Origin: Lachnospiraceae bacterium
GTDB lineage: Bacteria; Bacillota; Clostridia; Lachnospirales; Lachnospiraceae
Length of the DNA: 59,708 nucleotides
Assembly: GCA_017526985.1 (NCBI GenBank)
Contig: JAFXQR010000021.1
Location: 1 to 59,708 of the forward strand
Reading direction: 5' to 3'
Below the pieces are notes generated by a model. The model was not told the origin of the DNA, searched no databases, and was given only the letters and a program-made list of their open reading frames with translations. The position numbers and the translations under genes were made by a program. Shown in pieces: positions 8,607 to 30,573 of this stretch; positions within the stretch are counted from its first letter, which is position 1; the number at the start of each line of letters is the position of its first letter.

Positions 8607-8788
8607 CTGCACAAACAAACACGTCGTTTCTGTGATCTCTTAATTTATTAAGTACACAGACTGTTTTTCGTACAGTGACTTGTTGTCAGATGAATTGACA
8701 TTTGCTCCACGGAAAACCCGCTCACCCTATAATTTTTGAGTTCGCGGCAACCTCACGCTTCACAGCTATCAATGTCACAGCAATGGTG

Positions 8789-8817: not shown

Positions 8818-9060
8818 GCATTTTTTACAAATTTTCGCAATTTTTTTCTGTAATTTTTTTATTTCGCCCCAATTCAGTTATTTATGTAAACCAAATCAGT
8901 ATTTCTTCTATAATAAATACCACCGGCACGCATCTGGCCACACAGCAAAATCATATTGCCAAACGCCGGTGCATATTGTACCATAGGGGGAGTGATTTAC
9001 GCAAGTCTATAACGATCTACATTTATTACTTAATTATATATAGAAGCATTGGAGAACGAT

Positions 9061-11661: not shown

Positions 11662-11741
11662 CGACACCCCCGAAACGCCGTTACCTTCTTGGAATATTTA
11701 GCAAAATTATACCACTTCTTTCCGAAAACCACAACACAAGA

Positions 11742-11772
11742 AAAAGCGGCATCTCCGTAAAGATCCCGCTTC
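11742..11772 (-). terminator. Terminator of the MoxR/ClpP/AAA operon
   Basis: On the minus strand AAGCGGGATC pairs imperfectly with GAGATGCCGCTT around TTTACG and is followed by TTTC. It lies 13 nt after the stop of the last operon gene, the AAA+ ATPase. Confidence 0.6.
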
Positions 11773-11784
11773 CCCTTGTGTCCT

Positions 11785-13542
11785 CTACATCCGGACTGCA
11801 GTTCTCCGCACCGGTCTTACCGCAAAACCGTACGGATTACCGCTGTCGGAATGCTTCTGCGCTTCCATCGAGCCGATCGCCGTTTTGAGATCAGCCGCCA
11901 GCACCAGATCCTCCGCACCTGCCGTTTTCCCCTGTGATCCGCGCCGCTCCGCATCATGCCGGATCGCAACCGCCTTGATCACTGCATCCACCAGCCGTCT
12001 TGCTTCTCTGGCATTACCAAAGCTTCCACCTTCCAGTTGTTTCCGGCCCATCAGATACGATGCCGCCCGTGCGGAAAGCCCCTTTGCCGGCTGATAGCCC
12101 TTGTTCTTCAGCATATAAGCAAAGATCTCGCCCAGTTCCTTCTCCGTATAATCCTCAAAGCGTACCGTTGCCGAGATCCTGGAGGGCAGTCCCGCATCCA
12201 GTGCCAGCACCTTCTTCGCCTCTCCCGGATACATTGCAAAGATCACCGTCACATCCCGACAGGTCTCCATATAGCGCACAAATTCCTTCACCGCTTCGTC
12301 AATGTAACCTCCGGATTCATGATTCAGCAGGAACCCCGCCTCGTCTACAAAGAGCACACCACCGGCCGCTTCCCGAAAGAGCTTTGCCACCTTTGGCGAT
12401 GTCTGGCCCACATACGCGCCGATGATATCCTTCCTGGTCGCGCTGATAAAGGTGCCATTCGTGATCCCCTCTGCTGCCAGGATATCCGAGAGCAGCTTCG
12501 CCCCCACGGTCTTGCCGCCACCGGGATTTCCTTCAAAGATCAGATGCCGGCACTCCAAAGCTGCCAGCGGATTCCTGCGCATCTCATTGCGTACGGCAAT
12601 GTACTCCCACACTGCCTTCTTCAGATTCGCCAGCCCCGTCATCCCCTGCAATGTATCCAGCGCATTCTCCGCATCTGTCCGGATCAGATCCCGGAAATGC
12701 TCCGCGCGAAAGACGGTCTCCTCCGGCCGCATCCGCTCACGCCCCAGGGTCAGCGCCGCACTGATCCGTTCTTCGCTGATGTGATTGCCGCACTTGCGCA
12801 TCACCGTCCCCAGCACCGTCTCCTGAAGCTCCGCACTCGCAAAAGACACCTCGCCCCACGCAATCATCTCTTCAGCGACCTTGCGATAATACTCCGGCTT
12901 CACATCCGGCAGACGCACCACATCAAAACCACGCTCCAGGATCAGACGCTGGATCTCCGGCTTGTCCAGCAGCTCCTCCGTAATACCTACAAACACATTC
13001 TGTCCCTGCACACTGGCCACGGCATAGCACTGATCTTCAAGATTGCCTGCCTCCAGCCCGCGAAACAGCAGGCCGCTGCAAGACGATTCTTCCGCTGCTG
13101 CGCGGATCACCGTTGTCTTTATGATGTACGGATTCCCCGCCACACGCTCATCTGCCAGATCCCGCCCCAGCTCGATCTCCAGAATATCGCTGTAGCTGCC
13201 GTTGTCCGGATCATCTCCGTAATCAAAGGCATAGTCGTACTCGTCATAAGCCAGCAGATCAAATCCGTCCGCCAGAATGAGCGCCGATTTGCGGATACGG
13301 TTGATGTCATTGCTCACGAGTACTGCCTTAAAATGCCGGAGCCCCTCGTCTTCCGATTCTTCATTTCTCTGCCGGTGCCGCGTCATATACTCTGTCAAAG
13401 GCTCCGAATAATCCCGGAACCCTTCTCCAAAGGTCGCATTTTTCAGGACAATGCGCTCTGCACTGTAACCGTTAAGCGCCTGCCGTTCCAGCAGTACATA
13501 CGGGATCCGCTTACAGTAATAGTTAAAATACCGGTCAAACAT
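11785..13542 (-). CDS. CbbX/SpoVK-type AAA+ ATPase with degenerate N-terminal module
   Basis: A 585-aa protein. The C-terminal half is one complete AAA+ domain: Walker A GNPGGGKT (338-345), pore-loop-like region IGAYVGQTS, Walker B GVLFVDEAGF (395-404) and an arginine-finger/sensor region near LPSRISATVRFEDYT. This resembles the CbbX/SpoVK branch. The N-terminal 290 residues lack a P-loop but resemble a AAA lid (RGFDVVRLPDVKPEYYRKVA onward). It is the last gene of the operon, 14 nt after the ClpP-type protease, so it may be its unfoldase; however, no clear IGF/L-type ClpP-docking loop was found. The start has AAAGGAGGTG just upstream. Confidence 0.85.
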   Translation of the reverse strand: MFDRYFNYYCKRIPYVLLERQALNGYSAERIVLKNATFGEGFRDYSEPLTEYMTRHRQRNEESEDEGLRHFKAVLVSNDINRIRKSALILADGFDLLAYDEYDYAFDYGDDPDNGSYSDILEIELGRDLADERVAGNPYIIKTTVIRAAAEESSCSGLLFRGLEAGNLEDQCYAVASVQGQNVFVGITEELLDKPEIQRLILERGFDVVRLPDVKPEYYRKVAEEMIAWGEVSFASAELQETVLGTVMRKCGNHISEERISAALTLGRERMRPEETVFRAEHFRDLIRTDAENALDTLQGMTGLANLKKAVWEYIAVRNEMRRNPLAALECRHLIFEGNPGGGKTVGAKLLSDILAAEGITNGTFISATRKDIIGAYVGQTSPKVAKLFREAAGGVLFVDEAGFLLNHESGGYIDEAVKEFVRYMETCRDVTVIFAMYPGEAKKVLALDAGLPSRISATVRFEDYTEKELGEIFAYMLKNKGYQPAKGLSARAASYLMGRKQLEGGSFGNAREARRLVDAVIKAVAIRHDAERRGSQGKTAGAEDLVLAADLKTAIGSMEAQKHSDSGNPYGFAVRPVRRTAVRM

Positions 13543-13556
13543 AACCTACACCTCCT

Positions 13557-14129
13557 TTAATCCAATACCTGGTCCGCGATGCCGAAAGCCACAGCATCTT
13601 GTGCCCGCATCCAGTAGTCCCTCTCCGTATACCTGCGGATCTCCTCCACACTCTTGCCTGTGTTGTCCGCCAGGATCCCGTTGAGGATATCCCTGACCTC
13701 TTTGATATGATCTGCCGCTATGACCATATCACTGCTCTGTCCTTCCATTCCGCCGGAAGGCTGATGGATCATCACCTCCGCGTGAGGCAGCAGGAAACGC
13801 TGCCCTTTTGTTCCTCCGGAAAGCAGCACCGCCCCCATGGAAGCCGCCCGCCCCAGACAAAATGTGCGGATGTTCATCCCCTGCTTCTCCATATATTTCA
13901 TCGCATCGTAGATCGCCAGCCCCGCCGATACGCTGCCTCCTGGAGAATTAATATAAATATCCACCGCCTCGAGACAACTGTTTCCCTTCGCAGAGAGCAG
14001 CTGTGCCGTGACCGATGCCGCCATCTCATCACATACTTCTCCCACAATGTGGATGATCCCGTGCTGTAGGTTCTCCGAGAAGATATCACTCGTCCTGCTG
14101 CCATCGCTTACCATCGGATTGATCACCAT
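13557..14129 (-). CDS. ClpP-family serine protease (operon-specific paralogue)
   Basis: A 190-aa ClpP fold with a complete catalytic triad: Ser97 (GRAASMGAVLL), His122 (VMIHQP) and Asp171 (TERDYWM). The substrate-binding strand NSPGGSVSAG (61-70) is present. The start is ATG 14129 with GGAGGG 7 nt upstream; an upstream ATG at 14144 has no such site. It sits between MoxR and the CbbX-type ATPase and not beside clpX or tig. It is therefore probably a dedicated paralogue acting in this system, not the housekeeping protease. Confidence 0.92.
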   Translation of the reverse strand: MVINPMVSDGSRTSDIFSENLQHGIIHIVGEVCDEMAASVTAQLLSAKGNSCLEAVDIYINSPGGSVSAGLAIYDAMKYMEKQGMNIRTFCLGRAASMGAVLLSGGTKGQRFLLPHAEVMIHQPSGGMEGQSSDMVIAADHIKEVRDILNGILADNTGKSVEEIRRYTERDYWMRAQDAVAFGIADQVLD

Positions 14130-14159
14130 AATAAATCCCTCCATTTCTTAATTTCGCCA

Positions 14160-15344
14160 TTAGCCCGCCATACCGTACATCTGTCTGGCAATCTGCAGAT
14201 AGGCATCATTCTTCACCTTAAATACCACATTGCACAGCTCTGTATTCTCCGTGACCCGGAAGAAAAACTTCTCCCGAAGTGACTGCGCATCATTCAGTTT
14301 TTCCAGAAAAGCAAACACCCTGCCGATCTTTACAGAAGTCTTGTCCGCCTGCTCATAAGCCACATTTCGCAGGATCCCTTTTTCCAGGATGTCCAGTGCA
14401 CTCTCCCGAAAGATCCGGTCATTCTGGTTAAAACGCTCCAGCAGGCCCGGAGTCTCCTCCCCATCCAGGATCTTCAACAGCGCGGTTTCGCTGAAGGAAT
14501 TGTGATGCAGCCAGTAGTAGTTCCAGAAATCCTCCGCGATAGGCACCGACTTGATAAACTGCAACACCGTCATCCGGCTCAGCTCCAGCCCTTCCGCCGT
14601 ATAGGCATCGATCGTCCTGGCCAGATTCTCCCAGCCTCTCGTTGTCACGGTCTCCGGATGCTCCTTGCTGTTCGTCACCTTATAGATGTTCTGCGGATTC
14701 AGTCGCAGATATTCCAACACCAGATGGTTGTATCCCTTTTTCTCTGCGTAGGCAAAGAAATCCGCCGCATCCGGAAGTATGTCCATCCTGCGTACACGGT
14801 CTGTGATCGCCGGAGTGAAACGCTTTGCTGCCGCATTATATTCCACCGGGTTGCCACACAACACCAGACTCCAGCCATCCGGCAGATGATACAAGCCGAT
14901 GTTCCGCGTCTGTAGGAACGCCAGCATCACCGGCATGATCGTGTCCGATGCGCAGTTAAATTCATCCAAAAGCAGGATCCCTTCTTTCTGCCCCGCATCA
15001 CACGCACGCACTACTGCTGCGATCACTTCTGACATGGTATACTCCGTGTACTTTTCCCCGTTCTCCAGATCCTCGATCACCGGCAGACCGATGATGGAGT
15101 TTCTGGTGTGATGCGTCACGGAAAAGCTCACAAAACCGATCCCCAGCTCTTCTGCGATCTGCCGCACCAACTCTGTCTTGCCGATGCCCGGAGGCCCCTC
15201 CAGATAAAAAGGCTGCCGGTTCACCGGATCGTAATAATATTTTCCATCCGCATCCTTCGCATAATACGCCCGGATCCCGTTTTTCACCTCACTCTTGGCA
15301 CCGCTAATGTTGTAACTTGTTTTGCCGCTGTTCTTGCTGATCAT
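14160..15344 (-). CDS. MoxR-family AAA+ ATPase
   Basis: A 394-aa protein. The N-terminal AAA+ domain has Walker A GPPGIGKT (50-57), Walker B ILLLDEF (123-129), sensor 1 LVLCGNP and the ITDRVRRMDI arginine-finger segment. The C-terminal third is helical and unrecognised. MoxR proteins usually work with a VWA protein as a chaperone-like remodelling pair, and such a protein is encoded two genes upstream. It overlaps the preceding small gene by 4 nt (ATGA). Confidence 0.9.
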   Translation of the reverse strand: MISKNSGKTSYNISGAKSEVKNGIRAYYAKDADGKYYYDPVNRQPFYLEGPPGIGKTELVRQIAEELGIGFVSFSVTHHTRNSIIGLPVIEDLENGEKYTEYTMSEVIAAVVRACDAGQKEGILLLDEFNCASDTIMPVMLAFLQTRNIGLYHLPDGWSLVLCGNPVEYNAAAKRFTPAITDRVRRMDILPDAADFFAYAEKKGYNHLVLEYLRLNPQNIYKVTNSKEHPETVTTRGWENLARTIDAYTAEGLELSRMTVLQFIKSVPIAEDFWNYYWLHHNSFSETALLKILDGEETPGLLERFNQNDRIFRESALDILEKGILRNVAYEQADKTSVKIGRVFAFLEKLNDAQSLREKFFFRVTENTELCNVVFKVKNDAYLQIARQMYGMAG

Positions 15345-15844
15345 TTTGTATTCCTCCTTACATTCACAATCTGCTTGCCGCCCGCGGAACCTTCCTCCCG
15401 GTATGTTTTCAGTTCTCCCCGGTACATCAGTTGCAGCAGCGGGATCAGGTCATACATTCCTCTTGCCTGCAACTCCTTAAGACAGGGTATGGTATCCACC
15501 GCCGTGATCAGTTCCTTATGCAGAAGCACCCGGAAAAGCCTTTTCCCTTTGCCTTTTTCGTTTTCCGCCTCGCACCGGCCGATCATCGCTCGGATCAGTT
15601 CCGTTTTCCTCGGACGCATCGAGCATTCAAAACCGTCTATGAAATCCAGTATTCCCCCGTCAAAGGCCCCGTCTTTGCTCCCCTCAAAATACCTCCGGAA
15701 CCAGTTCAGTATTCTCCGGTCTCCCAGATCGGCGATCCGCACATCCTTCCCGCAGCGGAGACACGCTTGCCTGATCGTTTCCGAATCCGACGGATCCACC
15801 TCCGTCACCAGATAGTTCCAGAATTCTGCTTTTCTATCGCTCAT
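15341..15844 (-). CDS. Hypothetical protein between the VWA and MoxR genes
   Basis: A 167-aa protein with no family that I recognise. It is predicted mostly helical, with one cysteine pair (CLRC, about residues 28-31) and a basic C-terminus. It overlaps the VWA gene by 11 nt at its start and the MoxR gene by 4 nt at its end. It is therefore translated within the same operon and may be an adaptor between the two proteins. Confidence 0.75.
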   Translation of the reverse strand: MSDRKAEFWNYLVTEVDPSDSETIRQACLRCGKDVRIADLGDRRILNWFRRYFEGSKDGAFDGGILDFIDGFECSMRPRKTELIRAMIGRCEAENEKGKGKRLFRVLLHKELITAVDTIPCLKELQARGMYDLIPLLQLMYRGELKTYREEGSAGGKQIVNVRRNTK

Positions 15845-17276
15845 GCCGACACTCCTCCTTTTCCAGTACCAGGCATTTCACCCAGTCCGGCCGCATACTT
15901 TCACAACATTCACAGGCATCCCGCGAGGGAAAGACAAAATACACGGGATACTGCGGCTCCGTATCCGGATAATCCCCCAATCCGTCCGAGAAATAGATCA
16001 GCAGATCGATCTTCTCTCCCTCTTTTTCATACGCTGCCGTCCGTTCAAACACCGGCCGGAAATCCGTACCGCCGAATCCGCTGAAGGAATGCACGGGATT
16101 GCCCGCGGTTTCCAGATCATCGATGCTTTCGTACGCCTTTTCAAAGCTCACCTCCGCATCGCATTCCAGATAGTGCAGTCCGCCCAGCGCTCCTCTGTTG
16201 GCAATCTCCCGAAAGATCTCCACCGTCTCTGTCCAGAATTCGCGCAGGTATTCGCCGCAGGAGCCGCTGGTGTCCACCGCGATGACGACATTTCCCGGCG
16301 CGCAGACAAATTTATATTCCAGCGGTTCGATCATCGGTACATCCCCGTATAACGAGAGCCCGTATTCGTAGATCGCCGGATCGATCTCATCATCTTCCTC
16401 GCTCTTTTCCACCTGCTTAGAAATCTCGTCGATCAGGCTCTCGTAACGGAGTATTCCTTCTGCCTCCGCCACTACCTCACCGCCCTCTGCCCCGCCGACG
16501 CTGCGTCCGAAAGTGCGTGCTGAGGATTCCCGCAATGCTCTGGCCAAAGCATTCTCCAGTTCCCGCGGCATCCCGTTCGCAAAACTCTCTTTTCCGAGCC
16601 CTGTCAATGCACGGGTGATATCGATCCAGTGTAATGACGGCTGCCCATCCGGCGCCGGTTCCTCCCGGACTTTCAATTCCAGTCTCGGCAACGCCCAGGT
16701 CGTATGATCGTCCAACATCCCCCGGGCCCGTCTGCCTATGCCGGCCATGGTGGTTTTGATCGTTCTCTGCAGAGCCGGCTGCTGCCTTGCGTTATAGTAA
16801 AGCGAGAATCCCGTCTGATCACGAAAGAGACTGCGGACATCCGGGAAAACATCTCCCATATAGAATTGGTAGGGATCGCCATAGATACAGTTGATGCCGG
16901 TTTCATTAAAGAGCCGTATCACCTGAAGATCCATCACATCCCACGCCAGTCGGTTCTGCTCGTAATCCGCTCCTCTGCTAAAATGCCCCAGCAGCCCGTG
17001 ATAGATGATATGCAGGATCCGCAGTTTCATCTCCGTATCCTCTATTCCCCGCCCCACATCTTCCGCGTTATAAAACAGTTTTCCGCCGTCCGTGCAAAAG
17101 CAGCCGAGTTTTTCTTCCACTGCAACCGGACACAGATAATTCACTGCATCGATCAGGCAGGGATACTCCCGTTTGATCATCTGCAATACCTGACCGACGC
17201 GTTCCCCCGCCTGTTTGACTCTGCCGTTCTTTTGCTTTACCGGTGTCAGTTCCCTGCGATATTTTCTCTCTCCCAT
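15834..17276 (-). CDS. VWA-domain protein with degenerate DUF2201-type metallopeptidase region
   Basis: A 480-aa protein. The N-terminal region resembles DUF2201_N, but the usual HExxH is HIIYH (89-93), so the catalytic Glu is missing. A linker with acidic stretches follows. The C-terminal VWA domain has the MIDAS motif DTSGS (335-339), a GGTD loop and FSDG. Such proteins are usual partners of MoxR ATPases. The start is placed at ATG 17276, 7 nt after GGAGG and overlapping the upstream stop; an ATG immediately before it is equally open. The C-terminus has a CECC cluster (DACECCESM) about 30 residues from the end. Confidence 0.85.
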   Translation of the reverse strand: MGERKYRRELTPVKQKNGRVKQAGERVGQVLQMIKREYPCLIDAVNYLCPVAVEEKLGCFCTDGGKLFYNAEDVGRGIEDTEMKLRILHIIYHGLLGHFSRGADYEQNRLAWDVMDLQVIRLFNETGINCIYGDPYQFYMGDVFPDVRSLFRDQTGFSLYYNARQQPALQRTIKTTMAGIGRRARGMLDDHTTWALPRLELKVREEPAPDGQPSLHWIDITRALTGLGKESFANGMPRELENALARALRESSARTFGRSVGGAEGGEVVAEAEGILRYESLIDEISKQVEKSEEDDEIDPAIYEYGLSLYGDVPMIEPLEYKFVCAPGNVVIAVDTSGSCGEYLREFWTETVEIFREIANRGALGGLHYLECDAEVSFEKAYESIDDLETAGNPVHSFSGFGGTDFRPVFERTAAYEKEGEKIDLLIYFSDGLGDYPDTEPQYPVYFVFPSRDACECCESMRPDWVKCLVLEKEECRHER

Positions 17277-18601
17277 CATTCTTCCTCCGACCATTCCCCG
17301 TGTGCCTTGAGCAGCAGCGCCGGTATCAGATATGTTTTTTTCTCCTGCTCCAGTTGTTCCAGTAGCTCCCGCACATCCGACTTTCTGATAAAGTCCTTCC
17401 GGATCGCCATAAGCGCCGGTTCCTCGCCGCAATTTTTCAGGATATACTCCCGGTCAAATTCCCAGGGAAATCTCCGCTCGTCATACACCACACGGTCCGT
17501 TCCCCGGATCAGCAATTGCAGGAAAACTCCGGTCACACGGTTCTCCTCCGTCAGACATTTTGCACCAAAGGGCGGGTTATTATCGTTATCCCGCAGCGCC
17601 TTCAGATCCACCTGCCCAATGTGCAGCGCCAGCTTTCTGCCGGTGATCGCCTCCCAACAGTGGGAATAATCCGGGTAGCCATTGTTCGATAATAATATGT
17701 TCTTGTCCAGCCATTCCGCTGCGACCTCCTCCCAGACCACATTCTCATCTTCCGGTTTCGGGGTATACAGTTTTCGCAGCACACGCAGGTTCTCCTTTCG
17801 TTTGGGCGTATGTGACACCGAACAACAATTTGCAAACAGTGCCGCAAACAGTCGCACATTTATGACCTTTTGATAGAAGTCCTTATCCTTCTGACGGATA
17901 TGATCGAGCAGTTGTATCGTTGCGTCCAAAAAATCCGCGACCGGATTCCGCGTCTCCTCGATCGCCATAAAGTCCTGCTCCTTTTGAAGAACATAGGGCT
18001 GTATCCGTTTCGTCCTGAACTGAAACCATCCTGCTTCGGCGTCTGCATAGTACTTCTTCAAAAACCTGCAGGCGAAAGCACGGCTGAAATGCTTTTGTTT
18101 CCTGCACTGATCTGCCAGAATATAATAGTAGTGATCTTTCTCCGTATCTTCGGAGAGCAGATACATTTTGTCCTCCTGTTTCGGTGCCGAAAACGGTAGA
18201 TCGCTTATCAGCCCGCAAGTTACCTTATAGTCCGCAACCGGCTTCATCCGTTCGGGCGCACCGTATTCTTCCGATTCAAATAACCGGGCCGCCAGTTTGT
18301 GTTCCCCCATATAAATGGCAAAAAGCAGCACCGGCATACATCGGATCCATAATCTCGTCTGAAATGACGAATATGCAAATCCCGGCCCTTCCGGCATCGT
18401 AAAATAAACCTGTCCGTCCGGACATCTCTCCTGCAACCCCGCCCTGTTTCGTATTGCTTCCAGCACCGCTTCCGGCGTGTATGTCCCGCTGTTCTGAAAG
18501 ATCTGCTCAATCTGCTCCCGCACAGTCTGCGGCAGAGCCTTATAGGCTTCCTCCTGATGCGACAGATCCTGATCAAATCCGAATACACTACTGAATGCCA
18601 T
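17276..18601 (-). CDS. Hypothetical helical protein of the MoxR/VWA operon
   Basis: A 441-aa protein I do not recognise. It appears alpha-helical and soluble, without a signal peptide. It has scattered Trp/Tyr and Cys residues and a basic segment around 265-285 (KRKENLRVLRKLY). The start is ATG 18601 because AGGAGG lies 7 nt upstream; the frame is open further upstream. Its stop overlaps the VWA start, so the two products are probably made in a fixed ratio. By position it could be the third member of a MoxR-VWA ternary complex; this is inference. Confidence 0.75.
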   Translation of the reverse strand: MAFSSVFGFDQDLSHQEEAYKALPQTVREQIEQIFQNSGTYTPEAVLEAIRNRAGLQERCPDGQVYFTMPEGPGFAYSSFQTRLWIRCMPVLLFAIYMGEHKLAARLFESEEYGAPERMKPVADYKVTCGLISDLPFSAPKQEDKMYLLSEDTEKDHYYYILADQCRKQKHFSRAFACRFLKKYYADAEAGWFQFRTKRIQPYVLQKEQDFMAIEETRNPVADFLDATIQLLDHIRQKDKDFYQKVINVRLFAALFANCCSVSHTPKRKENLRVLRKLYTPKPEDENVVWEEVAAEWLDKNILLSNNGYPDYSHCWEAITGRKLALHIGQVDLKALRDNDNNPPFGAKCLTEENRVTGVFLQLLIRGTDRVVYDERRFPWEFDREYILKNCGEEPALMAIRKDFIRKSDVRELLEQLEQEKKTYLIPALLLKAHGEWSEEE

Positions 18602-18651
18602 TACTCTTCCTCCTGATCTTTTTTCCCGCATCTCCGGTTCCGGACGGTGCT

Positions 18652-19569
18652 TTACGACTTCTCATGGTTTCTTTTGGATTCCGGATGATAATAGATCTTG
18701 CCCACCAGTTCACGCAGCCTTGCAAAATGTTCACTGCCGACGGCGATCATTTCCACCTCATTCTCCATCGGAATCCCCCATCCGCCGCACATATCAATAC
18801 TGCATTCATATGCAATATCATCAGGCGTTACTCCCTCCGGGAATGAAAAATCCCAGATGTAAGCGGAATCATAATCCCAATAATCTCCCAAACTGAAATA
18901 CCGGACCGCTTTATAGATCCCCTCCTCGATCACTTCGCATACCACATTTCCGAATCGCACATACCCGTCGACTCCGCCTTCCGGCCAGCTCCATTCAAAT
19001 GCATTCCGCCGATTGGCAAGCATCTCCTGCTCATCTGCATCCGGAAGATTTTTCATTGCGTCAATGCGCTGAAAAACCTCATTGCATAAGAGATCCATCT
19101 CAAAAGATTTGCGAAAGCTTTTTCTCCGCCACTCTTCCAGTTTCATGCACTCCTTTCCCAGAAACCACTTCTTATCGTAGTGAAAGGACATATCATCCTC
19201 CAGATAAACCTCCAGAGACGGCTGTACATATTCCGCTTCATATGCATACAGCACCTGATACACCGGATACTTTCCGACCGCCAGTGAATAATTGCTGTAA
19301 TAGTCACTGTATCTGCCGTTCTGCCCTTTTCTGCTCCGGACATAAAGCCGTACTCCCCAATACTCCCGCAGTAATCGGCGCGCCTCTTCATTGGTAATTT
19401 TAAATTCCTCTTCCGCCTTATACAGACCGCCTGCCAGATGTACAAAACGATGTCCGGCAAACACCCTCTGCTGTGGAAAGGTTACACCCAGCCCACGAAC
19501 GCCTGTCTTGTTTGGTCCCAGTCCTTTCTTTCTGCCGTTATTTTCCTTATCATTCCTGTTTTCTTTCAT
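18652..19569 (-). CDS. Hypothetical protein, first gene of the MoxR/VWA/ClpP operon
   Basis: A 305-aa protein, unrecognised. The N-terminus is basic and asparagine-rich (MKENRNDKENNGRKKGLGPN). The middle is rich in Tyr/Trp and beta-like, and the end carries IYYHPESKRN. The start at 19569 has AAAGGAG upstream. It follows operator A and is 50 nt ahead of the next operon gene. A shrunken relic of a second copy lies at 27640-27765, matching both its N-terminal PNKTG and its C-terminal YHPESK segments. Confidence 0.75.
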   Translation of the reverse strand: MKENRNDKENNGRKKGLGPNKTGVRGLGVTFPQQRVFAGHRFVHLAGGLYKAEEEFKITNEEARRLLREYWGVRLYVRSRKGQNGRYSDYYSNYSLAVGKYPVYQVLYAYEAEYVQPSLEVYLEDDMSFHYDKKWFLGKECMKLEEWRRKSFRKSFEMDLLCNEVFQRIDAMKNLPDADEQEMLANRRNAFEWSWPEGGVDGYVRFGNVVCEVIEEGIYKAVRYFSLGDYWDYDSAYIWDFSFPEGVTPDDIAYECSIDMCGGWGIPMENEVEMIAVGSEHFARLRELVGKIYYHPESKRNHEKS

Positions 19570-19599
19570 CCTCAGTTCTCCTTTCTTCTTTGTATTTTG

Positions 19600-19634
19600 A
19601 TTAAACCACATCTCCCTATGCAAAATTGCATAGA
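19600..19634 (-). promoter_or_regulatory. Operator A and -10 box of the MoxR/VWA/ClpP operon
   Basis: The palindrome at 19615-19634, CTATGCAA-AA-TTGCATAG at its core, has perfect 8-bp arms. Read on the minus strand it ends 9 nt before the -10 hexamer TTTAAT (19600-19605). There is no -35 consensus; the palindrome occupies that place. The same geometry is seen at operators B and C. Confidence 0.75.
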
Positions 19635-19637
19635 TGC

Positions 19638-20765
19638 TTAAACACGATCCTTGTATGCCGCCGGATCCTTCTGTTCTGTACTGCGCTTTCTGATATTCAA
19701 AGCCGCCTGATCAAACCATTCCAGCTGGGATGCATACGGTTTCAATGCCTCCGTAAATACCTCTCCGTCCTTTTCTTTCATTTTTTCAAGATACTCCCTT
19801 CTCTGCTCCTCTATGTTCAGAGCGGGATTGTTTCCTATTTCGTACAGGAACTCATACACCCTCTTAAAAAAAGCTTCTGCCTCTTTCGTATCATGATCCT
19901 TGTAAATCCTTCTTGCACAGACGCCTTCCGGCAATGCATAAGCAACATCCTCCGCCCACATTTTTCGAAGCTTTCTATAGTCCTCTTCAGCATCCGGAAA
20001 GCGGGGTGATTCATACATCTTTAACAGACGGTATATATTGTCGTCGTCCAGCTGTTCTTCGTCCGTAAGCAGCTCACTGTAGATCATTGCGGGAATGCCT
20101 GTCTCAAAGATCAGTTCCCTTACCTCTGCATTCTTCAGAAGCTTATGAGGTATGGAATCACACAGCATTTCAAACCGCTCTTCATATTCGTAGAACCGGA
20201 CATGCTTAAAGTCTTCCAACACCTTGCAGACAATATCCGGGTCCTCCTTTTCCTCCTCCGTAAGCTCACCAAATATATCCATCGGATCTACAAATGCCAT
20301 CAATATATTTCTTGTTTCATCCGCCAGCAGAATGTCGCGTGGAATCTGCTTACAAAACATCGGTAATTCGGCACCACGCATTTCGATCACCGGGATGTCC
20401 CGTAACAGATCCACCATTCCCTTTGTTGCAGCCCTGTCCTGTTGCAGGATATCGCCGGCAAGCACCGTCAGGATCTCATCCACCTTGTTGAAATAGTTCC
20501 GCCAAAGTCTGCCGGCTGCCTCTCTGTCCATAACACATCGTTCCGGGTATCGCAGCCAATCGCTCTGCTCCTTTGATAAAAGGTATCGGAACAGGCTCAG
20601 AAATGTATCTGTATCGCGAAATACTTCTGCCGTATCCTCTGCATTTCCTTCCAGATATAACCTGACCGCCGACTCCCGGTCAAAATACCTCCGGTACACA
20701 CAGCCCTCTCCCACGATAATGCTGCGCAAGATCGCCCGGAATCTCTCAAACCTCGAGTGCTCCAT
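19638..20765 (-). CDS. Hypothetical acidic helical protein under operator B
   Basis: A 375-aa soluble protein with no recognised family. It is strongly charged and predicted helical throughout, with many Glu/Asp-Lys/Arg pairs and a conserved-looking block FRYLLSKEQSDWLRYPERCV. The start is taken at ATG 20765, with AAGGAG about 10 nt upstream; ATG 20786 is possible. It has its own promoter and operator B, and it ends only a few bases before operator A, so the two transcription units are adjacent. Confidence 0.72.
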   Translation of the reverse strand: MEHSRFERFRAILRSIIVGEGCVYRRYFDRESAVRLYLEGNAEDTAEVFRDTDTFLSLFRYLLSKEQSDWLRYPERCVMDREAAGRLWRNYFNKVDEILTVLAGDILQQDRAATKGMVDLLRDIPVIEMRGAELPMFCKQIPRDILLADETRNILMAFVDPMDIFGELTEEEKEDPDIVCKVLEDFKHVRFYEYEERFEMLCDSIPHKLLKNAEVRELIFETGIPAMIYSELLTDEEQLDDDNIYRLLKMYESPRFPDAEEDYRKLRKMWAEDVAYALPEGVCARRIYKDHDTKEAEAFFKRVYEFLYEIGNNPALNIEEQRREYLEKMKEKDGEVFTEALKPYASQLEWFDQAALNIRKRSTEQKDPAAYKDRV

Positions 20766-20836
20766 AACCTGTTCTCTCCTTTTCATCCTGTTGCATCGTT
20801 TGCTCTGCAGATACCTTTCTGTTTCCTTATGTTTGC

Positions 20837-20871
20837 ATTATAATAAAATAGCTTGTGCAATATTACACAAG
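20837..20871 (-). promoter_or_regulatory. Operator B and -10 box
   Basis: The 20-bp palindrome CTTGTGCAATATTACACAAG (20852-20871) pairs at 9 of 10 positions. On the minus strand a 9-nt spacer leads to a perfect TATAAT (20837-20842). The position of a -35 box is inside the palindrome and does not match TTGACA. Confidence 0.78.
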
Positions 20872-20952
20872 CCGTTAGTTTACTGCTTTGACGCCGTCGT
20901 ACGATGCTTCTTATCATCCTTATCGACAAAAACCATATACTTTCAAGCAAAT

Positions 20953-20983
20953 AAAAAAACAGTGCCCGTAAATACGGACACTG
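20953..20983 (-). terminator. Terminator of the McrB/McrC operon
   Basis: CAGTGTCCGTA pairs with TACGGGCACTG around a 2-nt centre (a usable loop of about 4 nt) and is followed by seven T on the minus strand. It is 35 nt after the mcrC-like stop. A near-identical sequence occurs inside the coding region of the WYL regulator at 30003-30033. Confidence 0.85.
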
Positions 20984-21017
20984 CAAAAATTTAGTATTCG
21001 CTGAGGTTTGGGATAAT

Positions 21018-24428: not shown

Positions 24429-24554
24429 TCTTATATCCTCCTTAACCAATTCATTTTTACATATTCTTTCTGTTTATTCAACTCTTTAAGCATCTTACGC
24501 AAGCGCTTTCCTCTGCCATGCTTCTGCTTAAGATCATTCTCCCAGGGCTTCGCC

Positions 24555-27455
24555 TTATGAATTGTCTTTCACAGAAGACATAAACCTGAGTACCTCATCC
24601 AGGGAAATGCTTTCTGTATTCAGTTCTACATTGTAGGAATTCCGCCATTCTTCAGACATACCTCCAATAATATCATAATGCTCATGGAATTCATACTGCT
24701 TAAGCCCTTTAAAACGGAAAATCTTGATCTCCCTTTTTTCAGAAAGGTATTCCAGGCCGCAGATATTCTCTCCTTCAACAAGGCAGCAGGTCATCCCGCT
24801 CTTTAACATAAAGAAGGCTCCTTTCTGTGTAGCGTACAAAAATCCTTCCTCACAAAACTGCCCTGCCCTCAGATTCTGGTATCTGGGATGCATCTCGCTT
24901 CCCCGAAGCTGTGCGTTATCAAAAAACACCTTAAGATTCTGTTTTTGATAAATCTTATTCATGGGATCAATTTCGTCATTGCTATAATAATGATCATCCA
25001 GCCTTGTCGTCACGGATATTTGGTTTAAAAAGAAACCTTTATTAACACCAGTGAAACTTACACCTTCGGGCGGATTGGAGCTGGGGATGATAGCCCCGGC
25101 ATCCTTAGGTGAAACACGTCCCGGGATCTCCACTATCGTCCAGTCGTTATGAACACTGTCCCACCAGGTATCTCGATCTGATCCAAACGGTTTATTCTCG
25201 CAAATCATGATCCGATTAGGTCTGTTAATATTGTAGTGCACAACCATCGGCTCCGGATAGCCAAGACATTTCAAATCCATGATCAGTATTGCGCCATAGA
25301 TTTCATTCGGCTGGAGCGCTTTTCCCTCCACATATGCAGGATATGTCCAGAAGATTTTTTTATTCGCCAAAAGACCAGCGCAGGATATGATTCTGTTCTG
25401 GAAATTCTGAATATCGACCGCCTCACGTATCTCAGTGTTATCCTCATAGATCCCTTTTTCCGCCTCTTTTTCAGCATCAAACCTGATCTTATCCTGAAAG
25501 AATTCAGAGAGTCCCTTTCTCACAAGCCACAACACATTAAAATTACTCTCATCAATAGCATATCTGCCCCTGATCGCCTGCAGTGTTACGAAATACTCGG
25601 CCTTCGGCGCCTGATATCCATTGCCCGCCTTGAAGTCAAAATACAGCTTTCTCATCTCCGCTTCGTTGTGTTTCCATTTAATCCGGAACAGGGTCAGCAT
25701 CTTGTAAGTACGATTATAAATCCCCAAATACTTATGACTCCCACAGGTACATGCAAGCAAAAGCTCTGAAAGCCTCTCTCCGTATAAATATGCGGCCTTG
25801 ATTTCACTCGTTTCTCCAGCGACATACCCTGTCAGAAAATCCTTACTGAGTCCATGCAGGAGATGTTTCAAATCAGCTTCCTCTTCCAACAGCTTTTGAA
25901 CCGTTTTCTCCTCCTGTATCCCCAAAGATACCTCTCTCCCGTTATAATGCACCGTCTGGCCATCGGGGGAGATTTCCACAGTCGGCGGATAAACCTCACC
26001 AATTTGGATCGTTACACCTTTTTCCGGAACATACCTCACAGACGTCACAGTAGTTTGTCCCGCATCCCCCGGCACACGGATCTCATCAATAAAATTCTGT
26101 TCGTAGTAGCTCTTTCTGCTTGCCGAAAGAATTTCTTCGCAGTTCAGATAATCCCTGATTTCTTCCTTCCCGCCATTCCCCCCGAATAAGAATTCCTGAT
26201 TTAAAAGTAAATACCCATCTTCAAAGATCCGGTATCCCTGATAAGGATCTTGCTTGTTCTCTTCTCCTGAGAAAGAATATCCTTTCTTTTCGCAATCCAC
26301 TCCGGTATTCAAATATCTGCATTCCTTTTTCTGCAGATTATACCACAAAAAATCCCCCACACTTTCCTCGACAAATAAAAGCTCAACCTCCCTATCCTTG
26401 CGAACATAAGCATCATACCCATACGCACCGGAGATGTCCGTTATCAGTTTCTCCACTTTTCGTCCATTTACTTTAATGGTGCATAAAAAACACTCTCCCC
26501 CGTAGTAACCTGGCCCTGCAATCATCCAGATGCGATCCAGATATATCCAGGCCTGGTAAACCTCTTTCATCTCAAATTCAGGAACAAAGCTGAATAACAC
26601 CGCTCTGTCTTTCTCTACCACAAACCGCAGGCGCTGCGCTCCCTTATATTTATATTCTTCGCTGCTTACTCTGACACGATTATCCAGTCTTTCATACACC
26701 AGTTCTTTTAATTCCGGCAAGTGCTTTTTCCAAATCTGAACATGCTCAGAGTGGGATACATTTTCGTCTTTGACGCCACCCTCATAGTCACCTGCGCCAT
26801 CTGCCACCAGTTCTTCTTCCCACCCCTCTGCCGATTCTGCATCATCCTCGTCTTCTATTTCATATTCTTCTTCATCCTCTTCGATCAGGTCTTCCTCTGC
26901 TTCGTCTTCTGCTTCTTCCTCTTCTGCTTCTTCCTCTTCATACTCATAGTTTTCTTCAATCAACTCTTCTTCGTCCTCATATTCATCGTCTTCTTCGATT
27001 AACTCATCCTCGTTTTCATACTCATACTCTGCTTCGATCAGTTCTTCCTCTTCTTTGCCATCTTCCTCATCTTCAAACGCATACTCATCTTCATCAATCA
27101 ATTCTTCATCATCTTCGTCTGCAAACGCTTCTTCCGGTTCAGCTTCGGAGTCTTCTGCATTTTCCTCCTGCTGCTGAATATCTCCATATAAAGTGGCCTC
27201 AATCAGTTCCAGATTCTTTCTCTTATCTGCCGTTCCAAAATCCATTGGAATTGCGACCTGCCGCCCGGCAATATCCACATACTTGATATTTCCCGTATAC
27301 GTTTCAGCCTGCTCCTTATTCGTGGTAAAGCAGGATTCAAATTTCCCAATAAGCTCCGGATGATCTGTCAGCATCTGCGTTATAACATTCTCATAGGCCT
27401 CCGCAGGCTTCTTCTGATAACACTCTTCTTCAAAACAATATACATAGTACCCCAT
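24555..27455 (-). CDS. Large hypothetical protein with a long Glu/Asp tract
   Basis: A 966-aa protein, unrecognised. Residues 1-90 form a small domain (MGYYVYCFEEECYQKK onward). About 95-240 is an extreme acidic low-complexity stretch built on ELIEEDEYEDEE-like units. Residues 250-966 are rich in aromatic beta-strand-like segments that could form propeller or sandwich repeats (a guess). No signal peptide or membrane segment. The start is ATG 27455, chosen for GAAGGAG upstream. It lies 126 nt before the McrB-like gene on the same strand and is probably co-transcribed. The acidic tract could mimic DNA or bind a basic partner; untested. Confidence 0.75.
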   Translation of the reverse strand: MGYYVYCFEEECYQKKPAEAYENVITQMLTDHPELIGKFESCFTTNKEQAETYTGNIKYVDIAGRQVAIPMDFGTADKRKNLELIEATLYGDIQQQEENAEDSEAEPEEAFADEDDEELIDEDEYAFEDEEDGKEEEELIEAEYEYENEDELIEEDDEYEDEEELIEENYEYEEEEAEEEEAEDEAEEDLIEEDEEEYEIEDEDDAESAEGWEEELVADGAGDYEGGVKDENVSHSEHVQIWKKHLPELKELVYERLDNRVRVSSEEYKYKGAQRLRFVVEKDRAVLFSFVPEFEMKEVYQAWIYLDRIWMIAGPGYYGGECFLCTIKVNGRKVEKLITDISGAYGYDAYVRKDREVELLFVEESVGDFLWYNLQKKECRYLNTGVDCEKKGYSFSGEENKQDPYQGYRIFEDGYLLLNQEFLFGGNGGKEEIRDYLNCEEILSASRKSYYEQNFIDEIRVPGDAGQTTVTSVRYVPEKGVTIQIGEVYPPTVEISPDGQTVHYNGREVSLGIQEEKTVQKLLEEEADLKHLLHGLSKDFLTGYVAGETSEIKAAYLYGERLSELLLACTCGSHKYLGIYNRTYKMLTLFRIKWKHNEAEMRKLYFDFKAGNGYQAPKAEYFVTLQAIRGRYAIDESNFNVLWLVRKGLSEFFQDKIRFDAEKEAEKGIYEDNTEIREAVDIQNFQNRIISCAGLLANKKIFWTYPAYVEGKALQPNEIYGAILIMDLKCLGYPEPMVVHYNINRPNRIMICENKPFGSDRDTWWDSVHNDWTIVEIPGRVSPKDAGAIIPSSNPPEGVSFTGVNKGFFLNQISVTTRLDDHYYSNDEIDPMNKIYQKQNLKVFFDNAQLRGSEMHPRYQNLRAGQFCEEGFLYATQKGAFFMLKSGMTCCLVEGENICGLEYLSEKREIKIFRFKGLKQYEFHEHYDIIGGMSEEWRNSYNVELNTESISLDEVLRFMSSVKDNS

Positions 27456-27562
27456 TTTTCTCTTCTCCTTCTCGTATTTCCAGGCAGCAGCCACTATCAC
27501 AAGCTTCCTTTGTCCACTTCTTACTCTTGCATCAGAAACAAAGCTCTTTCGTTGCCCAGAAA

Positions 27563-27571
27563 ATTATAACA
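27563..27571 (-). promoter_or_regulatory. Extended -10 promoter for the 966-aa/McrB/McrC unit
   Basis: TGTTATAAT on the minus strand is a TGN-TATAAT extended -10 box. The -35 position 17 nt upstream reads TTTATT, a weak match. No copy of the island palindrome is seen here, so this unit may lie outside direct control of the WYL regulator. Confidence 0.55.
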
Positions 27572-27639
27572 CACCCCTCTTATTGAATAAAGATGTATTT
27601 CTTCCAGAACGCCCGTAGTTTTTTCGGAACAAACGATAA

Positions 27640-27765
27640 TCATCCTTCCATCCGCTTTTTCGACTCCGGGTGATAAAGGATACTGCTATCCAGTCTGCGG
27701 CATCCGGTTTTGTTTGATCCGGCGCCTCTTTGTATACCAGCGTTTTCCTTTAAATATTCTTTCAT
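27640..27765 (-). pseudogene. Relic of a second copy of the 305-aa operon gene
   Basis: A 41-aa open frame, MKEYLKENAGIQRGAGSNKT at its start and SSILYHPESKKRMEG at its end. The 305-aa protein at 18652-19569 has PNKTGVRG near its N-terminus and KIYYHPESKRN near its C-terminus. The relic therefore looks like both ends of that gene joined after loss of about 260 codons. It has only a weak Shine-Dalgarno site. The rest of the 27456-27846 gap shows nothing beyond the promoter at 27563. Confidence 0.5.
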
Positions 27766-27846
27766 CTGCTCTTTCTCTATTTCCCTATACTAAGACTCCG
27801 TTTCCGATCATTTTCCAGCGAAAACACTCTGTAAGTTGTCATTCAC

Positions 27847-28857
27847 TCACGGCAATATCTTTGAAATCACCGGATCCGGTGCGCACGAAGAGGCGCTGCA
27901 GATTCCCATTATCACTACATTCTCCGGAATAAAGAACCCATTGGCAAACGGATCGTTTCCTGCAGAACCGGGATAGGACTGATACATTGTCCGGATCCGG
28001 ATTCCATCTTCACGATATTCCGGTAACATACCATACAGTGCCTCTCCAAAAAGCACTTTTTCCGATACCATGTCATAGTTCTCGATCACAAATATATGCG
28101 GCAATCCGGGTTTTCTGCAGGCATTGCTGCAAAACTCCTTAAATACTCCGTCTACCCTTACCAGATCCGTCGTATCCCGCAGTCCCTTTATCGTATCTCT
28201 TGTGCCCCTCAGGCTTACCACTTTTTCCATAAAGTCTTCATAGGTATATCCGGGATGAAGGGCAATGATTTCCAGCGGATTCTCATGTTCTGCGGCATAC
28301 GCGAGGTTGCCGAGTTCATTAGCCAGATGGAGCACCGTTTTTCTGATATTGCTCTTGTTTTCTTCATTTCCGCAGATCCGCAGCTGCCTTTCCCCTTTCA
28401 CCAGGATCCTTTCGCGCAGCTGTTTATACAGATATTCTGTTTCAGTCGCCTCAAAGGAATCCGTTTCTGCATATTTTGTTTTTACCTGAAAAACAATTTC
28501 AAACCGTTTTGCATCCAGCCTGTCCTGCGCCCCGGCAAACAACTGTACCCAGTAACACAGATCCGGTACCCAGCGATCCTCATCCACCCGATTCTTCCCG
28601 GTGCGGTTCTCCAGAAATTCATCAAACTGTTTCGTCAGTTCATCTCCCTCGCAGATTACTTTCCCATCTTCCCGGATTTCCCTGATTTCAAGATCGTAAA
28701 AGGGCAAAATTACTCTGCGCCCCTGCCGGTCCTCCCTGAATAATTCGCCCCTTGCATCCATTGCAACCAGTTCTGCAAAAGACATAGCCGTTGTAAGCCG
28801 GATTCTGTCCTCCCTCTCATTTTCGCTTCCTTTCTTTACCGCATCAACCTTCATCAT
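27847..28857 (-). CDS. McrB-like protein with decayed nucleotide-binding motifs
   Basis: A 336-aa protein. It parallels the McrB fold: HPGYTYEDFMEKV corresponds to the YEDYSYEKFV region of the neighbouring McrB-like protein. The P-loop position reads GNEENKS (163-169) instead of GxPGTGKS. The Walker B position reads FVIENYD (256-262) with Asn for Glu. The MNxxD motif is absent, and the protein stops soon after that point. It is probably a non-catalytic regulator or decoy, or a gene in decay. The start is ATG 28857, 8 nt after AGGAGG. It is transcribed from operator C, divergently from the WYL regulator. Confidence 0.68.
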   Translation of the reverse strand: MMKVDAVKKGSENEREDRIRLTTAMSFAELVAMDARGELFREDRQGRRVILPFYDLEIREIREDGKVICEGDELTKQFDEFLENRTGKNRVDEDRWVPDLCYWVQLFAGAQDRLDAKRFEIVFQVKTKYAETDSFEATETEYLYKQLRERILVKGERQLRICGNEENKSNIRKTVLHLANELGNLAYAAEHENPLEIIALHPGYTYEDFMEKVVSLRGTRDTIKGLRDTTDLVRVDGVFKEFCSNACRKPGLPHIFVIENYDMVSEKVLFGEALYGMLPEYREDGIRIRTMYQSYPGSAGNDPFANGFFIPENVVIMGICSASSCAPDPVISKILP

Positions 28858-28915
28858 CCCTTTGTCCTCCTGTCCGTTTCGTTTTTTTTGCAACCCTTCG
28901 CTGCTTTCTGACTAA

Positions 28916-28950
28916 AGTATAAAAGATCTATCTGTGCATTATTGCATAAG
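28916..28950 (-). promoter_or_regulatory. Operator C and -10 box
   Basis: The palindrome-like TCTGTGCATTATTGCATAAG (28931-28950) lies 9 nt upstream of the -10 hexamer TATACT (28916-28921) on the minus strand. The -35 position falls inside the palindrome and reads CAATAA. It drives the decayed McrB-like gene. Confidence 0.72.
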
Positions 28951-28988
28951 CAATTTTTCATCACATCTGTCCCGAATTGCAGATTTTA

Positions 28989-29016
28989 TGATATAATATA
29001 GGCAATATTGCACAGA
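28989..29016 (+). promoter_or_regulatory. Extended -10 promoter of the WYL regulator with operator D
   Basis: TGATATAAT (28989-28997) is an extended -10 box with no good -35. The palindrome core GCAATATTGCACA (29002-29014, within the aligned 28997-29016) begins at the end of the -10 box and covers the expected start site. That position suits autorepression, unlike operators A to C. Confidence 0.75.
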
Positions 29017-29036
29017 CACGGACCGGGAGGACACCT

Positions 29037-30212
29037 ATGGGAAGCATTTCCAAAAAAGCGCAGCCTCGCACAAAAGGCGAAACATCCACCAACAATATCC
29101 TTTATCTGATCTTGACACTAAAAAACCACAGTGACCGCAATCACCCTCTCTCGATCCGAGAGATTACCGAATCTCTGAACAATGACTTCGGTTCTTATGG
29201 CATCCAACTGGACAGGACCACCGTACTGCGGCAGTTGAACAAGCTGGAAAGCGAACGGATCGGCCTGTTTCGCGAGCAGGATGATGAAATCACGGAAATC
29301 ACCGATTCGAAGGATCTGGATCTTCGTCACAACCTCGGTTTTTATATTGTCGGTTTCGAAGACAACGGGACAAAATATTACTACTATGAATCCGTTTTGC
29401 TGGAAAGCGAACTGATGGCACTCTATGACGCGATCGAAACCTACAACTACTTTGCCGTAGATGACATCAAAAGCATTTCACTGAAACTCTCCACGATACG
29501 CCCTCTGTCCGAGGATAAACTCAAATACTATCCTTCCCAGACAGATCTGGATCTCAAGGAAGATAATACGGTATTGCAAAATATCAGTGCATTGGCCGGG
29601 ATCATCCAAAGCAGCCAACTCGCCAATATCGATTACGGCGAGTATAACAAGTTATTGAAATTGGCTCAAAAAAAGGGCTACCCGAAAACCCTTCGCCCGC
29701 TGCGCCTGCTATGGAGCAACGGTTATTACTATTGCATCATGGGGATCAAAGGATACAGCAACACGATCAATCTCCGTGTTGACCGCATCCTTTCGATCGA
29801 TCCCGTTCCGGCAGACAGTAAACAGCTAAAAGAATACTCCGGCTTCGATGGGATAAACGGCAGCAACGACCCGGATTCCAAATCTTCCTATCGTTCCAAA
29901 AATCCGGTCATGTATTCCGGCGCCCAGAAAAATTTTCATATACTTGTCAATGCATCCGCCAACAATATGATGAACACCATCGTGGATGTCTTCGGAAAGA
30001 ACAAAAAAACAGCGCCCGTAGATGCGGACACTGCCAAAAAATATCATATCACCGCAGGCGACTGGGTACAGCTCCACCTGAAATGCACCGCAGACGGTAT
30101 GGAGCTCTTCGCCACCGAATACTGCCGCTATGTGATCATCATCTCCCCGGAGAAATCTGCGCAGAATGTACGGGAGACACTGAAGCTGGCGCTTACACGC
30201 TACGGCATGTAA
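29037..30212 (+). CDS. WYL-domain transcriptional regulator
   Basis: A 391-aa protein. An N-terminal winged HTH lies at about residues 15-90 (PLSIREITESLNNDFG, then LDRTTVLRQLNKLESER). The central WYL domain is about 190-265 (LRPLRLLWSNGYYYCIMGIK, then LRVDRI). A C-terminal WCX-like extension ends LALTRYGM. WYL proteins commonly sense nucleic-acid ligands and control defence loci (BrxR, CapW, PafBC, DriD). The start has GGGAGG 6 nt upstream. It is divergent from the island genes and flanked by operators C and D, so it is the obvious candidate to bind them. Confidence 0.88.
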   Translation: MGSISKKAQPRTKGETSTNNILYLILTLKNHSDRNHPLSIREITESLNNDFGSYGIQLDRTTVLRQLNKLESERIGLFREQDDEITEITDSKDLDLRHNLGFYIVGFEDNGTKYYYYESVLLESELMALYDAIETYNYFAVDDIKSISLKLSTIRPLSEDKLKYYPSQTDLDLKEDNTVLQNISALAGIIQSSQLANIDYGEYNKLLKLAQKKGYPKTLRPLRLLWSNGYYYCIMGIKGYSNTINLRVDRILSIDPVPADSKQLKEYSGFDGINGSNDPDSKSSYRSKNPVMYSGAQKNFHILVNASANNMMNTIVDVFGKNKKTAPVDADTAKKYHITAGDWVQLHLKCTADGMELFATEYCRYVIIISPEKSAQNVRETLKLALTRYGM

Positions 30213-30252
30213 CCCCCGGCAGCCTTTCGGAAACCCGTACTAAACTTACCGC

Positions 30253-30284
30253 AAAAAATCCTGTGCCTTTTCGCACAGGATTTT
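30253..30284. terminator. Bidirectional terminator after the WYL regulator
   Basis: AAAATCCTGTGC pairs with GCACAGGATTTT around a 6-nt loop, with A and T runs on the two sides. It closes the regulator gene on the plus strand and the membrane-protein unit on the minus strand, and marks the right edge of the island. Confidence 0.85.
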
Positions 30285-30301
30285 CGTTGTTTATCCTATT
30301 T

Positions 30302-30573
30302 TTATTCCCCCGGGATCCGGAACATATCCACCACCGCATCGGCCAGCTGTTTTCCGGCTGCCGTACACACCACGACATGCACCGCCACGATCGTCGCCCC
30401 TCTGCAGATCACATCCGTCTCCGCCAGGATCTCTTCCTCCTGATCCGTATTGGTCAGAAAATTCACATAGGCATTCTGCGTCACATAGATATTTCCGTCC
30501 GCTCCGTCGACTCCGATACGATCTCTATCCCGTTCTCTTCCATGAACGGATTCCAGCCTTTTTTATGTTCCAT
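30302..30573 (-). pseudogene. PaaI-type hotdog thioesterase, broken by internal deletion
   Basis: From ATG 30573 (AGGAG upstream) the frame encodes MEHKKGWNPFMEENGIEIVS and stops shortly after. The other frame then continues with ADGNIYVTQNAYVNFL, which runs to a normal thioesterase C-terminus (ICRGATIVAVHVVVCTAAGK, then QLADAVVDMFRIPGE). The segment that should contain the catalytic HGG and helix is missing, and the two halves are out of frame. It is a dead gene downstream of the membrane-protein gene. Confidence 0.7.

Follow-up and report, generated by a model that had tools for sequence, protein, structure and literature searches.

Gene Content of the Island

The subject of this study is an island of 13 genes at positions 11,785 to 30,212 of contig JAFXQR010000021.1 from Lachnospiraceae bacterium, in which a MoxR-VWA pair, a CbbX/SpoVK-type AAA+ protein, a ClpP peptidase, an McrB/McrC pair and a WYL-domain regulator lie together. 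The stretch analysed (59,708 nucleotides; the window) is the whole of this contig, C76 of a 4.09 Mb, 220-contig genome (G000). All 13 genes were confirmed as present, with start codons checked, and the gene content is as given in a preliminary description of the locus. Read from right to left, the minus strand carries a cargo unit, a terminator-like hairpin (20959..20984), the accessory gene u382 (19638..20786) and a seven-gene unit in the order u323-u451-VWA-u167-MoxR-ClpP-CbbX. The WYL gene (P0013, 391 amino acids (aa), 29037..30212) is divergent, on the plus strand at the right end of the island, and a second terminator-like hairpin (30255..30284, plus strand) lies 3' of it. The preliminary description placed the island between two terminators; this holds for the right side, and there is the internal hairpin (20984-20959), but at the left end no terminator was found in the region examined (11500-11900).

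The seven-gene unit opens with u323 (18652..19569, 305 aa from the ATG at 19569), a recurrent accessory gene, and u451 (17276..18601, 441 aa from a conserved ATG), which looks like a helical solenoid, is weakly ankyrin-like and gave no Foldseek match with E under 0.001. Next are the VWA protein P0005 (15834..17276, 480 aa from a conserved ATG), which has a DUF2201 C-terminal domain (34.2 bits, cut-off 26.4) and the MIDAS sequence DTSGS, and u167 (15341..15844), a small core protein whose C-terminal segment resembles that of u451. The MoxR-type AAA+ ATPase P0003 (14160..15344, 394 aa, with GPPGIGKT and LLLDEF) takes its name from an AAA_5 match above cut-off (31.3 bits) and from its position beside the VWA gene, its AAA_3 and bpMoxR matches both being below their cut-offs (bpMoxR 18.5 vs 27 bits); the P-loop reads GPPGIGK[TS], GAPGIGKT or SPPGCGKT in all nine aligned MoxR proteins. 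The unit ends with ClpP (P0002, 13557..14144), whose catalytic triad S102/H127/D176 is intact, and the CbbX-type protein (P0001, 11785..13542, 585 aa), composed of an N-domain that lacks a P-loop, an active AAA domain at about 291-560 and a C-terminal YGF tail. No accepted Pfam family was found for u451, u323, u382, u167, the McrB-like 348-aa open reading frame (ORF) or the 981-aa ORF of the cargo unit, and among the 13 island proteins there was no Pfam match (E <=0.1) to VMAP-C, iSTAND or beta-propeller families besides the sub-cut-off bpMoxR match.

HExxH is the metallopeptidase motif of DUF2201, and the VWA protein had been described as carrying a dead peptidase domain of this family. The window protein does have HIIYH in place of the motif, but this is not special to it. 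The Glu of HExxH is missing from all nine aligned VWA proteins and from that of L002, a locus of the same broad VWA family, and among 21 further VWA proteins of the genus the pattern could be found in 13, none of them with HExxH, and not in the remaining eight (the variant L026 is counted in both sets). The missing motif is general to the VWA family and no marker of the island.

Conservation of the Core

Six of the island proteins, namely WYL, u451, VWA, u167, MoxR and the CbbX-type AAA+, are common to all eight core loci (the window, G178, G180, G150, G179, L069, L070 and L073). The core genes of G178 and G180 are spread over several contigs, the G178 WYL gene being on a separate contig and placed by synteny, and the CbbX gene of L069 is cut by a contig end. 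The loci emerged from two kinds of search. Among 35 genomes of the genus, close VWA homologues were found in four other genomes (97, 66, 49 and 51% identity), followed by one distant variant in G150 (33%), 22 matches of 33-43% and a few weaker ones; a CbbX-type protein of at least 57% identity occurs in five of the 35, which are the same five that have the close VWA proteins and are called core genomes below. These genus-wide surveys covered the VWA and CbbX-type proteins. A search of genome contigs with an alignment profile of the CbbX N-terminus gave seven loci, all titled Lachnospiraceae, of which four (L067, L068, L071, L072) are contigs of G178, G180, G150 and G179, and three (L069, L070, L073) are new.

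Gene order varies. In six of the eight loci, WYL and u451 are immediate divergent neighbours. The window has accessory and cargo genes between the two, an arrangement that is also inferred for G178, where contig breaks interrupt the region. G150, G179 and L073 have the order VWA-CbbX-u167-MoxR. The preliminary description had treated the complete gene set as one system, and of this the linkage of the MoxR-VWA pair to the AAA+ and WYL genes stands in 8/8 loci, but the full set is not one unit: the core does occur without McrBC, and in every one of the eight loci observed WYL accompanies it.

Wider sampling points to a rare system. Among 397 family and 398 phylum genomes, the CbbX N-domain was found in its own genome only; the even draw of these genomes did not hit the four remaining core genomes of the genus. 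As a single protein, u451 was found only in its own genome among 150 family genomes. None of the 228 plasmid records matched by the AAA+ protein covered 80% of the query and a scan of viral contigs gave no match, so no carrier element was identified. Two more distant relatives were seen. A variant on G150 contig C2 (L066/L141) has MoxR-VWA genes, a WYL gene, a helicase-like 964-aa protein, a 384-aa protein and a CbbX-type AAA with an IGF tail, with ClpP and a VirD4-like ATPase downstream. On G152 C39 (L176:1754-6235), a possible minimal relative, a WYL gene (24% identical to P0013) precedes a gene of unknown type and an AAA with a GF tail.

The WYL Regulator and Its Candidate Operator

The regulator P0013 matches a WYL model of PADLOC (E 2.1e-9), and its Pfam WYL score is 16.6 bits, under the 21.8 cut-off. 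A gapless 16 base pair (bp) palindrome, TGTGCAAWATTGCACA, lies at the promoters of the u323/core operon (19617..19632), u382 (20854..20869, with arms extending to 20851-20872), the cargo unit at P0012 (28933..28948) and the WYL gene itself (28999..29014), which bears out the earlier report of one palindrome at four promoters. The copy at 20854 was also considered as a mere terminator and this was rejected, since the same 16-mer recurs at the other promoters. With up to three mismatches on both strands, the window has nine matches, whereas 100 shuffles gave 1.05 on average and always fewer than nine; the ninth match (three mismatches, at 30262) is the terminator after the WYL gene.

Among the 35 genomes of the genus, scanned with up to one mismatch, the palindrome is present in eight, comprising all five core genomes and three of the 30 others (Fisher p 1.7e-4). 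The core genomes have 26 matches at 16 distinct sites, and the three others one site each. At this threshold only one of the four window sites is detected, the other three having two mismatches. With up to two mismatches, 23 sites were found in 13 system stretches (the window, L061, L095, L183, L062, L099, L063, L064, L065, L098, L069, L070 and L073), none being in L183 or L064, and none in five comparison stretches (L066, L132-L135). First-order Markov resampling, ten times per stretch, gave 0-0.1 expected sites for each system stretch and 0-0.2 overall, the window being controlled by the shuffles instead. All but one of the 23 sites are within 180 bp of the start of a listed ORF, and the last is 50 bp before another ORF.

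A site lies at the WYL gene in 8/8 loci (weakly in L073), and one upstream of u323 in all four genomes where a homologue of that gene was seen (the window, G178, G150 and G179). G178 has further copies between MoxR and ClpP and before its first cargo gene. On G180 contig C169 (L099:6158-7771), three similar small genes (150-175 aa) stand in tandem behind CbbX, with the palindrome upstream of the first and third. From this pattern, the WYL protein is predicted to bind the palindrome.

Four of the 16 core-genome sites are outside islands, on G000 contigs C47, C92 (inside a kinase gene) and C185 and on G150 C3. The last of these (C3:331973, L093:7974; one mismatch) is 78 bp before an AddB-like exonuclease gene. 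The C185 site (39367, L094:8368), with the sequence TGTGCTATATTGCACA, is located where a 528-aa ORF begins, and an identical 16-mer lies ahead of the G178 cargo. Such outlying sites would be expected if the palindrome belonged to another regulator, e.g., a global factor, and the distant G150 C2 variant has a WYL gene and no such site. However, the sites at the WYL gene in every core locus and their near absence from the 30 non-core genomes of the genus speak for the WYL protein, and the WYL protein of the variant is only 31% identical, so that a different site there is unsurprising. We regard another regulator as very unlikely. The proposal that a single regulator gene and a single operator-like palindrome belong to one defence-like island is upheld, with WYL in 8/8 loci and the palindrome concentrated in the core genomes.

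Probable Exchange of Cargo between Related Genomes

In the window, the cargo unit consists of a motif-less McrB-like protein that lacks a P-loop (P0012, 27847..28857, a 348-aa ORF), a very acidic protein of 966 aa (24555..27455, from ATG 27455 in a 981-aa ORF), an McrB-type GTPase (P0010, 22518..24449) and a LlaJI/McrC-type endonuclease subunit (P0009, 21018..22517), all on the minus strand. The last two are a LlaJI-type pair, with matches to Pfam RE_LlaJI (P0009, 4.7e-29) and PADLOC REase_II, and P0010 is an AAA_5 protein with its McrB motor motifs intact (GAPGTGKS, EEINR, MNSAD). LlaJI restriction-modification systems have adjacent cytosine methyltransferases. The island differs in having no methyltransferase match among its 13 proteins (the rest of the window was not fully scanned) and in the acidic and motif-less McrB-like partners. 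Nor did any of the 13 match a phosphatase or kinase. The acidic protein gave only short matches, in two of the 34 other genomes of the genus. P0012 has a homologue (38.6% identity) in a second G150 island (C7, 78-95 kb; L132:2175-19001), which also carries a u382 homologue, a GF-tailed AAA, ClpP, a DUF4116-repeat protein and AddAB-like genes, and has no palindrome. Distant homologues of u382 also occur in G150 and G179, in the vicinity of ClpPs that share a clade with P0002.

The window and G178 share 98.0% nucleotide identity at 28984-30507 and 93.8% at 14167-20998, and 76.5-81% in the CbbX, ClpP and right-flank stretches, with 91% in the far left (5122-9945). For the intervening slot between WYL and u382, 20999-28983, there was no blastn match (E 1e-10) in three G178 stretches, and its G+C content is 0.395-0.452 (3-kb steps) versus 0.47-0.54 for 12-21 kb. 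At the protein level, WYL, u382, u323, u451 and VWA are 96-98% identical, ClpP, MoxR and u167 78-83%, and five right-flank proteins 79-90%. In G178 the same slot holds matches to ZacB (4.7e-17) and ZacC (8e-75), and in G179 matches to ZacA/B/C lie downstream of the core. ZacABC, identified here by PADLOC models, is cargo beside the core in these relatives and is not present in the window; no relevant description of it was found in the open-licence PMC literature searched. L070 has AddAB-like and PD-(D/E)XK genes without a palindrome.

McrB/McrC lies beside the core only in the window. The restriction arm of the preliminary description is real as a LlaJI-type pair but does not belong to the core, and is replaceable cargo, since ZacB/ZacC relatives hold the same site in G178. 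The pattern suggests that defence cargo has been exchanged under one control unit, and the identities suggest that WYL and most of the core were recently transferred between the species of the window and G178.

Two other explanations bear on these data. The core might be a RavA-ViaA-like chaperone or maturation system for a house complex, with WYL and defence cargo inserted at a permissive site. Proteins of the same broad VWA family are indeed common, with P0005 matches in 87 of 295 genomes of the order; at the one such locus examined (L002), the gene after VWA is MoxR-like and has a transporter gene beside it, and in L073 the core has no recognised cargo as far as the contig reaches. The specialised core, on the other hand, is rare (five of 35 genus genomes, and for the CbbX N-domain one of 397 family genomes, its own), shares its palindrome with accessory and cargo genes and seems from its sequence identity to have been transferred between species along with WYL, all of which make a housekeeping role rather unlikely. 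Alternatively, only the cargo (LlaJI/McrBC or Zac) would be for defence, and the core would be a control layer or guard, its ClpP step removing a phage inhibitor or restraining the cargo against self-damage. Different nucleases beside one constant core are what a shared control layer would produce, yet no nuclease cargo was seen beside the core in G180, L069 and L073, where neighbours had no family scan and contig ends limit the view in L069 and L073. We consider this quite improbable.

The CbbX-Type AAA+ Protein and ClpP

P0001 matches the NCBIfam models SpoVK (4.3e-43) and CbbX (8.2e-37), both far below the equivalog cut-offs, and gave no NCBIfam match to FtsH. Its N-domain is AAA-like by model only, and a profile comparison of the N-domain and D2 found nothing; the AAA domain that follows it is live. 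The protein ends in YGF in five of the seven complete core CbbX-type proteins, in IGF in one and in MGF in one, and the G and F are invariant in all six aligned complete proteins. Across a tree of related AAA proteins, a [LIVMYF]GF tail is present in 17 of 32 and is accounted for by one change, a value as low as which was not seen in any of 500 shuffles. That count leaves aside sequences truncated at a stretch end and those matched over fewer than 150 residues, among them L172 (IGF tail) and L173 (no tail); in an earlier list, 11 of 27 uncut proteins had a GF tail. Clp ATPases dock on ClpP through a motif (L/I/V)-G-(F/L) (PMC8745299), which the [YIM]GF of the CbbX-type proteins resembles, but theirs sits in a C-terminal tail and not in an internal loop.

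The peptidase itself is well identified (Pfam 4.1e-61), and identity as a phage head-maturation protease was rejected (best PHROGs match 7.3e-40 vs 1e-66 for a ClpP subfamily model). In the tree it groups with seven other ClpPs (support 98/91), and 14 housekeeping-type ClpPs of the genus fall outside this clade. Four of the eight core loci (the window, G178, L069 and L070) encode ClpP, in every case between MoxR and CbbX, and it is an optional part of the core. A proteolytic arm tied to MoxR-VWA, as earlier proposed, is to this extent supported by the ClpP genes beside the AAA+ gene and qualified by their absence from half of the loci. A second ClpP family (32-40% identical to P0002; L136, L137 and L139 (G154 C59, G179 C3), L138 and L140-L143) usually precedes a VirD4-like ATPase ('TGLNNN..SGxxKTGS'), L138 ending before the ATPase. 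A distant MoxR/VWA set lies upstream of it in G154 (twice) and G179, and in G164 (L138) only VWA was recognised.

Relation to Described Systems

Among the closest described systems are the MoxR-vWA conflict systems (Kaur et al. 2020, PMC7159879), which were proposed from genome context. In their FtsH ternary systems, MoxR and vWA are joined by a third protein, in which an inactive AAA domain at the N-terminus is followed by an active one, and the MoxR P-loop is often GXXXTAKS. The island shares the combination of MoxR, VWA and a third AAA+ protein, which may likewise pair a dead with a live AAA domain, and peptidase effectors are a feature of those conflict systems too, but its third protein is of CbbX/SpoVK type, its MoxR P-loop is canonical, its VWA keeps the MIDAS, its partner peptidase is ClpP, and it also has a WYL gene together with nuclease cargo that is exchangeable. 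The main text of that paper mentions no ClpP, CbbX or DUF2201, and WYL once. The island is not a member of the FtsH subsystem because the AAA family and the MoxR P-loop do not agree, and it is regarded as a variant of the MoxR-vWA kind, with a predicted function.

In the Type III-A CoCoNuT extensions (PMC11090510), VWA proteins and an AAA+ ATPase of the SpoVK family likewise accompany an McrBC-type system. There, a TerY-like VWA, a phosphatase and a kinase are part of the restriction operon, whereas the constant part of the island includes MoxR, u451, u167, ClpP and WYL, and McrBC is replaceable; ClpP is absent from the main text of that paper. The arrangement of one WYL regulator beside diverse defence systems, with inverted repeats at promoters, recalls BrxR (PMC9122601). 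The BrxR site, an 11-bp repeat with a 5-bp spacer, occurs twice in the island of that regulator, in contrast to the gapless 16-bp palindrome at four promoters here, and the present genes include a MoxR-VWA/AAA+/ClpP operon. In the portion of the open-licence PMC literature consulted, no description of the full gene set was recognised.

Conclusions

We consider it fairly probable that the locus is a defence island of modular build, controlled by one WYL regulator, with a constant MoxR-VWA/AAA+(ClpP) core for remodelling or proteolysis. This reading builds on the gene content, its conservation, the distribution of the palindrome, the cargo swap and the intact catalytic motifs, and would add to them binding and induction through WYL, unfolding, ClpP docking and an anti-phage effect. 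The idea of one defence module with proteolytic and restriction arms survives as an island defined by WYL and its palindrome around MoxR-VWA-AAA+, but with ClpP optional and McrBC replaceable.

The WYL protein would bind the palindrome and hold down the island until its ligand arises through infection or DNA damage. MoxR and VWA could then work together as a chaperone driven by ATP, for which u451 would serve as adaptor or sensor, and the CbbX-type AAA+ might unfold a target and dock ClpP, dedicated or housekeeping, through its C-terminal GF tail, ClpP degrading the unfolded target while the cargo attacks foreign nucleic acid. A more specific version is offered only tentatively: an infection-switched protease in which MoxR-VWA feeds a tandem-AAA, CbbX-type unfoldase, which represents a group of GF-tailed AAA+ partners of ClpP, with interchangeable DNA-attacking cargo coupled to it by one WYL operator.

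The island offers a compact, sequence-defined version of the MoxR-vWA conflict systems. Its operator is predicted, as is the link between GF tail and ClpP, and sister species provide a natural swap of its cargo. If the proposal is true, it would add a kind of ClpP unfoldase, and these bacteria would have kept one control and chaperone unit while nucleases were exchanged under the same operator.

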